Source of the DNA: Candidatus Odinarchaeia archaeon
Lineage (GTDB): Archaea; Asgardarchaeota; Odinarchaeia; Odinarchaeales; Odinarchaeaceae
Direction of reading: 5' to 3'
NCBI GenBank assembly: GCA_029856525.1
Contig: JAHQXC010000002.1
Span: 1-44,960, forward strand
Length of the DNA stretch: 44,960 bases
The translations under genes were made by a program, and so were the position numbers. The notes beneath the pieces were generated by a model. It did not search any database. It was not told the origin of the DNA and saw nothing but the letters and a program-made list of their open reading frames with translations. Below are positions 3,787-6,256 of the stretch, in pieces (position 1 is the stretch's first letter; each line of letters begins with the position of its first letter).

Positions 3787-4563
3787 TTAGATGGAAACCC
3801 CCTCATCAGGTTTGAACATAGGTTCAAGCGGGCTGGATTCCTTTTTCTCAACAGTTTTAGCTAACTTTTCTTTTTTAGGTAGAATATAACCACCGATTTT
3901 ACCGCCTACAGCCCCTGTAATCAACGCGATAATCACGTTTATTATAAGAGCGAGGATAATAGGTTGAAGAATACTAGCTATTAAAGTAGAAATATCGAAG
4001 CCGCCGCCGAAACCTGAGAGTATGAATGTGATCAGCGAGTCAACTAAGCCTCCTATTACCGGAGCGCTTAAAATAGCTATTATATCAACGCCTGCAGGCG
4101 GACTTGTTATAAGCGACATTAATTGCGCTTGAACAGTAGGATTACTCATCACGGTGAAAGCGCTTAAAACACCGAACCCGGCCATTAAGAGAAAACCGAA
4201 AAAGAGAGTCGAAATAGCTACAGCGACACCACCTTTCCCTGAACCAGCTATTAACCCGCCTACTAAAGCAGCGCCTACTAGAATAGAGATATGTATAAGA
4301 TCATCGTAAGGCCCGAGTAAAGCGTAAAATTCGGTTAAAATAATTGTTAAGTTTACTCCGAAAACAGGGTTAAACCATGTGATAAGCATAGCGTAGCCTT
4401 CTGGTAGAAACATAAGAGTTAAACCGAAAATCATCGCCATTGATATAATCCAGCCTAATAGCTTGCTACCCGTTATAAACACCTCCGTGAAGTTAAACAA
4501 TTTTTGAAGTGAACTACCGCTATCTAAATCCGGTGGCTTGTAACCTCGCACTGAACCGTTCAC
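3787..4563 (-). CDS. Integral membrane protein of unknown function
   Basis: 258 aa, several Gly/Ile-rich hydrophobic segments, charged C-terminal tail; no family recognised. Confidence 0.65.
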   Translation of the reverse strand: MNGSVRGYKPPDLDSGSSLQKLFNFTEVFITGSKLLGWIISMAMIFGLTLMFLPEGYAMLITWFNPVFGVNLTIILTEFYALLGPYDDLIHISILVGAALVGGLIAGSGKGGVAVAISTLFFGFLLMAGFGVLSAFTVMSNPTVQAQLMSLITSPPAGVDIIAILSAPVIGGLVDSLITFILSGFGGGFDISTLIASILQPIILALIINVIIALITGAVGGKIGGYILPKKEKLAKTVEKKESSPLEPMFKPDEGVSI

Positions 4564-4570
4564 AAGTACA

Positions 4571-4695
4571 CTGTGAGAGGTTGAGGCTGGTTCACATCAG
4601 CCCAACTCCCCATCATATAGTCGAGGAGCCTGCTACCTATATTCACGCCACCGAATTCATCCACCGCTTAAAAGCGGCGGTCTTCTAGCGGTGAA
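4571..4695 (+). mobile_element. Solo IS200/IS605-type right end / TnpB omegaRNA-like scaffold (no tnpB in window)
   Basis: 'GTTGAGGCTG..CAGCCCAAC' stem (4580-4589/4598-4606), 'ACTCCCCATCATATAGTCGAGGAGCC', then 'GAATTCATCCACCGCTTAAAAGCGGCGGTCTTCTAGCGGTGAA' with hairpin 4661-4669/4672-4680; this layout is typical of IS605-family right ends. Confidence 0.6.
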
Positions 4696-4765
4696 ATTTA
4701 TAAAATTATGTACTGTTAAAAAGAAATATAATGATATCGTAAATCTTCATGGAAAAGTTTAGATT

Positions 4766-6256
4766 CTAAGATTCAGCCATCAGCTTGTTGATCGCTTCTA
4801 TTATAGCTTCAACACCGGCGATAACAATATCCTCGCTAGAGCCTCTTGAAGTAAAGCTTCTCTTTTTTTCATCCTCTATAGTCACGATTGTTTCAGCTAC
4901 AGCCTGAGTCCCCCCTGTGATAGCTTCCAGCCTAAACTCTTTAAGCTTGAAGGGGGCTACCTCTTCGCTCGCGTTTCTTATAGCGTTTATTGCAGCATCT
5001 ATCGGGCCAACCCCGTTCGCGGCGACTATAACTGTTTTACCGCCTATGTGAAGTTTAACAGTCGCAGTCGGGTTTATTTTATTACCTGTCACAACCAGTA
5101 TATCCTCTAGCTTAATCTTCTTCATATGAGGTGGTAGACTTTGAATCACAGATCTAGCTATTGAACTAATATCCGCCTCTGTAACTGTGATTCCCTTATC
5201 TCCTAAAGCCTTTATTTTATCAACGATTATCCTCAACTGCTCAGGTGTATATTTAAAGCCTAAATTCTCCAGAATTTTCCCTACCCCGTGAGCTCCACTC
5301 TGCTTGCCTGCTACAATCCTGCTTTTAGCCCCTATCTCCTCAGGGGAGATAGGCTCATACGTCATAGGAGATTCTATAACACCGTGAGCGTGGATACCGC
5401 TTTCATGTGAGAACGCGTTAGCGCCTACAACAGCCTTATTAGGAGCTAAAGGAACACCGGTCAACCTCATTATTTTCTGAGATGTTTCATAAATTTTAGA
5501 GTAATCTAAGTTGAGTTTAACACCGTACATATATTTTAAAGCCACCGCTACTTCTTCAAGAGCAGCGTTACCAGCTCTTTCACCTAGACCATTCATACAG
5601 CAATGAGGTTGAACAGCCCCCTCCTCTATTCCAGCTAAAGTATTAGCTACAGCTAAGCCCATATCATTATGACAGTGAACTGAAATATTAGCTTTAGTAA
5701 CACTTTTAACCTCGCTAACTATTTTCTTCATCGCAATAGGGATCGCCACGCCTACAGTATCAGGTATATCTAGATAGGATGCTCCGGCTTCGGCGACTTT
5801 AGTAAACACTTCTTTTAAAAATTCGAGTCTAGTCCTCGTAGCGTCTTCAGCTGAGAATTCAACTTCAATACCATGATCTCTAATATATTCTACAGCCCAA
5901 ACAGCTCTCTCAACAACCTGCTCAGGATCCATGTGAAGCTTATACTTCATGTGAATATCACTGGTGGCTATAAAAGTGTGAATCCTAGCCACATTACAGT
6001 CTATAGCCTTATCGATATCTTCTTTTTTAGTTCTAGCTAAAGCGCATATCTTAGCTTTAAGACCCTCATTAGCTATCTGTTTAACAGCTTTAGCCTCACC
6101 CTCGCTGGAAATCGGAAAACCAGCCTCTATCACATCCACTTTAAGATCGTCTAGAAGATGTGCGATCTCGATTTTCTCATCGATTGTTAAAGCAACACCT
6201 GGAGTCTGCTCCCCGTCTCTTAGAGTAGTGTCGAAAATATATACTTTCTCAGGTAA
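4766..6256 (-). CDS. 2-isopropylmalate synthase / citramalate synthase family (5' end uncertain; called ATG at 6139)
   Basis: HMGL-like domain with 'SVHCHNDMGLAVAN' and LeuA dimerisation domain; in-frame upstream codons encode 'LPEKVYIFDTTLRDGEQTPGVALTIDEKIEIAHLLDDLKV'. Confidence 0.85.
   Translation of the reverse strand, partial: LPEKVYIFDTTLRDGEQTPGVALTIDEKIEIAHLLDDLKVDVIEAGFPISSEGEAKAVKQIANEGLKAKICALARTKKEDIDKAIDCNVARIHTFIATSDIHMKYKLHMDPEQVVERAVWAVEYIRDHGIEVEFSAEDATRTRLEFLKEVFTKVAEAGASYLDIPDTVGVAIPIAMKKIVSEVKSVTKANISVHCHNDMGLAVANTLAGIEEGAVQPHCCMNGLGERAGNAALEEVAVALKYMYGVKLNLDYSKIYETSQKIMRLTGVPLAPNKAVVGANAFSHESGIHAHGVIESPMTYEPISPEEIGAKSRIVAGKQSGAHGVGKILENLGFKYTPEQLRIIVDKIKALGDKGITVTEADISSIARSVIQSLPPHMKKIKLEDILVVTGNKINPTATVKLHIGGKTVIVAANGVGPIDAAINAIRNASEEVAPFKLKEFRLEAITGGTQAVAETIVTIEDEKKRSFTSRGSSEDIVIAGVEAIIEAINKLMAES

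Follow-up and report, generated by a model that had tools for sequence, protein, structure and literature searches.

The sequence at positions 4509-4699 of the window (the whole stretch of DNA that was analysed, 44,960 nucleotides) is, with high confidence, a core-deleted and transposase-free element of the IS200/IS605 family (tnpB type), which is of the kind described as PATEs and lies on the minus strand. It is an ordinary IS200/IS605-derived, tnpB-less element whose kind is already known, and its novelty is limited to the occurrence of such an example in this lineage. The window represents contig C14 of a genome of 1.32 Mb in 127 contigs, which is 93% complete. The element, its parts and its neighbours are located as follows:

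4509-4699, minus strand: entire element of 191 bp, a PATE-like copy of IS200/IS605 type with a deleted core and no tnpB, delimited by the alignment of copies
4700-4704, minus strand: TTTAT, adjoining the left end on its 5' side (target or transposon-adjacent motif)
4650-4699, minus strand: left end, outer stem CACCG/CGGTG enclosing AGAAGA, an 8-bp hairpin and GATGAATTC
4661-4680, minus strand: 8-bp hairpin of the left end
4566-4652, minus strand: remnant of the TnpB C-terminus, GGVNIGSRLLDYMMGSWADVNQPQPLTVY, located by tblastn with the TnpBs of genome G010
4509-4649, minus strand: tnpB 3' end and right end, corresponding by homology to the part of tnpB elements that encodes the omegaRNA
4585-4602, minus strand: short stem-loop GGCTGATGTGAACCAGCC from the consensus fold of nine copies (the CAGCC stem of the earlier note)
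4509-4549, minus strand: right end, GCGAGG...CCACCGGATTTAGATAGCGGTAGTTCAC; in the window copy its terminal hairpin has about 4 bp
4489-4508, minus strand: flank directly 3' of the right end, TTCAAAAATTGTTTAACTTC, the position of a guide if an omegaRNA is made
4766-6139, minus strand (the same as the element): upstream LeuA-type gene with HMGL-like and LeuA dimer domains
3787-4563, minus strand: downstream membrane-protein open reading frame from the ORF list, beginning within the element in its longest reading

The 191 bp contain neither a transposase gene nor tnpB, and the only coding trace is the 29-codon remnant, which showed 52% identity over 29 aa to the C-terminus of G010 TnpBs (tblastn, E = 0.001-0.002). 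A tblastn search of the window with four TnpBs returned this remnant and one weak match elsewhere (E = 0.05). In this search and the profile searches, no TnpA or TnpB gene was found on the contig, in agreement with the earlier note. The collinear copy on C121 keeps the TnpB zinc-finger region (PF07282) between the same two ends.

The orientation of the element was assigned from its ends. A motif composed of AGAAGA (or a near variant), an 8-bp or 5-bp hairpin and GATGAAT closely precedes tnpA on C44 and tnpB on C93, and it was also found upstream of tnpB in the genomes G030 (L028, L070) and G010 (L066, L067). In the window, it comprises positions 4686-4653 of the minus strand, and the outer stem framing it was observed here as well as in L015, L016 and L067. 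At the other side, the similarity between the aligned copies ends after GTAGTTCAC or a variant of it, which corresponds to position 4509 and marks the true right end; the right end could be aligned with the other copies and with the right ends of the G010 tnpB elements. Since the left-end motif lies 5' of tnpA or tnpB, the remnant is in frame with TnpB and the copies end in common with GTAGTTCAC, the element is, by sequence comparison, read on the minus strand, and its motif is the left end, which had previously been viewed from the opposite strand. The TTTAT motif immediately precedes the left end in 7 of the 11 copies in the home genome.

A 261-bp query around the motifs had 13 matches elsewhere in the same genome, the best of them on C77 (E = 1.1e-24), C125 (8e-21), C121 and C33 (both 1.5e-14). 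The motifs quoted before are present at their location, and these matches are far beyond chance. Including the window copy, eleven dispersed copies were counted, a number that takes in C33b, which has kept its left end and whose right end is unrecognisable. A model (R1) built from nine solo, i.e. tnpB-less, copies found 10 places in the home genome, including one on C111 that was new. Rearrangements in common were observed within two pairs of copies: C37a and C37b have a common internal deletion, and C24 and C82 carry the same left-end hairpin inverted in place (L023 950-1150, L024 917-1100). Because these rearrangements are private to each pair while the flanks are unrelated, the gutted forms seem to have moved after the deletion. 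Outside the element, an identical 16-base block TATATTTCTTTTTAAC was observed at positions 4715-4730 of the window and at 1134-1149 of L023 (both minus strand); the flank similarity between the window copy and the C24 copy reaches E = 3e-5, and C77 has a similar TTAACGGT at this flank. The block might represent an extension of the left end, a common target repeat or a promoter.

A congener represented by a single contig of 1.418 Mb (G001) served for comparison. It is free of the element at the sites of C121 and C37b, the two sites that were comparable on both sides; there, the two genomes align up to a point near the left border and again from the right border, or from a position beyond it, onwards. 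The best joins in the border scan of C121 were 1231-1233 with 1636-1637 compared to the predicted 1228 and 1637, with no target duplication. The empty sites gave the borders of C121 and C37b within a few bases, and that of C121 backs the borders of the window copy. Model R1 had no match in this genome. Its best leuA homologue ends after 112 residues inside an open frame of 13735 residues, which is most likely masked sequence.

Outside the home genome, model R1 found seven places, six of which (four in G010, two in G030) comprise TnpB C-terminal coding sequence, while the seventh (G014) has only a zinc-finger-like frame upstream. That a model of solo copies recovers tnpB 3' ends in other genomes speaks for the IS200/IS605 derivation. 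The G010 elements (L066-L069) contain the closest TnpB found and a homologous right end finishing with GTAGTTCAC, and two of them (L066 and L067) share the left-end motif of the window copy; they differ from it in that their tnpB is full-length or largely complete between the ends. Other solo elements with a similar left end were observed in G007 and G037 (L026, L027, L029, L030). Among these, L026 comprises at about 344-655 a left end, about 240 nt and then GGTGGTAGTTCAC as its right end; some of its frames resemble a TnpB C-terminus, and it has no tnpB ORF. Rfam gave no match for these elements.

Altogether, the earlier note is right on the IS200/IS605 derivation, on the absence of a tnpB gene and on the element being a remnant or non-autonomous copy.

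PATEs (palindrome-associated transposable elements) were described in Haloquadratum walsbyi as elements without transposase or inverted terminal repeats that have IS605-type near-terminal palindromes and in some cases arose via core deletion (PMC3119063). In one of them, HqIRS71, part of a C-terminal coding region is still present, its frames being disrupted (PMC3119063). The element of the window resembles them in being transposase-free, without inverted terminal repeats, core-deleted, equipped with IS605-related near-terminal hairpins, present in several copies and missing at sites in a close relative, and it shares with HqIRS71 the partial C-terminal coding region. The left hairpin is the one of the C44, C93, G010 and G030 elements, and the right hairpin is positioned as in G010 and is weak in the window copy. 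Insertion without duplication was observed for the sister copies C121 and C37b. With the lack of a transposase gene, the near-terminal palindromes, the dispersed copies and the duplication-free insertion, all PATE features that could be tested are present. Differences are that Haloquadratum represents another lineage and another sequence family and that the copies are fewer here; the ends were compared with the tnpB elements of related genomes and not with those of Haloquadratum.

The present state of the locus can be explained as follows. The element sits 3' of TTTAT, with a leuA-type gene on one side and a membrane-protein gene on the other. The same motif has been reported at the left end of solo-tnpB elements in Sulfolobus islandicus (PMC10640517), and insertion 3' of a target motif without duplication is the mode of the IS200/IS605 family (PMC8612924). 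An internal deletion has removed most of tnpB, and the left end, about 29 C-terminal TnpB codons and the right end remain. Based on the known mechanism of the family, the element was probably transferred in single-stranded form by a Y1 transposase that was provided in trans and acted on the hairpins at both ends. The window copy is now drifting along with its ten sister copies, and most likely the element does nothing for the cell.

The insertion also affects the annotation of the downstream gene. Its longest reading starts with GTG at 4563, and the element encodes the first 18 residues (MNGSVRGYKPPDLDSGSS), for which reason the true start is probably located downstream of 4509. The predicted protein is hydrophobic, comprises 258 aa and showed no Pfam match and no relative in a scan of the genome contigs. 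It was not found in the congener either, where the region in question may be masked.

Regarding the enzymes of the family, matches to the Y1 transposase (PF01797) were restricted to C44 in the home genome, while TnpB (PF07282) was matched on C93, C44 and C121, with two further matches below the threshold on C125 and C93. Two TnpB ORFs are uninterrupted, those on C93 and C44, and they showed about 30% and 38% identity to the G010 TnpB over partial alignments, compared to 61% over 41 aa for the relic on C121. Judged by these alignments, the TnpBs of C93 and C44 belong to other groups than that of the element. An intact cognate tnpB was not found in the 93% complete genome, where only the C121 relic was observed, and neither was a TnpA with a matching left-end sequence, the sole TnpA (C44) having a different one. 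The parent element could be missing from the assembly. The C93 TnpB lies nearly at the end of its contig (L016 6500-6806), which stops exactly at the right end ...GGAGTAGCTCAC, as if the right end were the repeat that broke the assembly. A glutamate is expected in RuvC motif II; at this position the TnpBs of L015 (1081-2403) and L066 (413-1621) comprise VVGNLKGIR and VFGDLKNVR, and their catalytic residue is possibly relocated.

Since the element retains the region from which guide RNAs of this family originate, it could be asked whether it serves as a solo omegaRNA on the minus strand for a TnpB from elsewhere in the genome, with the flank 4508-4489 as guide. We consider this very unlikely. 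In ISDra2, the reRNA consists of the tnpB 3' end and the right end, and its last approx. 16 nt derive from the flank (PMC8612924); the guide position in the window was deduced from this example. The origin from the tnpB 3' end and right end and the guide position in the 3' flank are common to both. The required position on the sense strand at the tnpB 3' end and right end is found on the minus strand (4649-4509) and not on the plus strand, and a guide RNA made on the ISDra2 pattern would be a minus-strand transcript ending with TTCAAAAATTGTTTAAC within the leader of the membrane-protein ORF. Ten copies have retained a recognisable right end and tnpB 3' region, uninterrupted TnpB ORFs are present on C93 and C44, and read-through from leuA could give a sense transcript. 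However, these two TnpBs are of other groups, a cognate TnpB is not available apart from the C121 relic, and in contrast to ISDra2 the terminal hairpin has decayed to about 4 bp. The fold of the right-end RNA is no better than that of shuffled sequences (z = -0.9), and in the nine copies the pairs of the stem-loop are mostly kept with almost no compensatory change. A search for targets of the approx. 20 nt downstream gave only the self match as an exact one; the best other match, on C18 with one mismatch, has no adjacent TTTAT, and no second target with this motif was found. A literature search at the level of titles and abstracts found no direct precedent for trans-acting solo omegaRNAs. The suggestion of a guide-RNA locus usable in trans is not supported, as the cognate tnpB was found only as the C121 relic and the terminal hairpin has about four pairs. 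It is also very improbable that some of the eleven copies are still transcribed on the minus strand and supply guides in trans to a resident or unassembled TnpB. If true, they would form a dispersed guide set, with the guide of the window in the leader of the membrane-protein gene.

The reading of the earlier note, an IS605 right end or omegaRNA on the plus strand at 4571-4716 with the guide AATTTATAAAATTATG just 3' of it, is barely credible. On this strand a stem is indeed followed by GAATTCATCC, a hairpin and TCTTCT, and the strand folds moderately (z = -1.7). Yet in C44, C93, G010 and G030 the same motif lies 5' of tnpA or tnpB in the opposite orientation, which identifies it as the left end, and it is the minus strand that carries both the tnpB remnant and the GTAGTTCAC end. 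The motif orientation in tnpB-bearing elements refutes the plus-strand reading. The interval comprises the motifs, misses 62 bp at the right end and includes the target motif and flank at 4700-4716. The adjacent DNA, described as not being tnpB, harbours on its minus strand the remnant of the tnpB 3' end, and the guide was assigned to the wrong side, as it would be TTCAAAAATTGTTTAACTTC if made. Virtually no weight can be given to a transposon-unrelated non-coding RNA or regulatory element of the host, which would fit an intergenic, repeated and hairpin-bearing sequence and is disfavoured by the homology to tnpB 3' ends, by the absence from the tested congener sites and of any R1 match in that genome, and by the lack of Rfam matches, both for the window at the gathering threshold in a covariance search for known RNAs and among 15 related loci at E <= 0.1.

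The value of the core-deleted element lies mostly in annotation, as it provides an example, from outside the haloarchaea, of a gutted PATE-type IS200/IS605 element, and its host genome has kept the parent tnpB solely as a relic. Caution is called for as well, since AGAAGA, hairpin and GATGAATTC mark the left end in these archaea, and reading this motif from the other strand leads to a spurious omegaRNA with a wrong guide.
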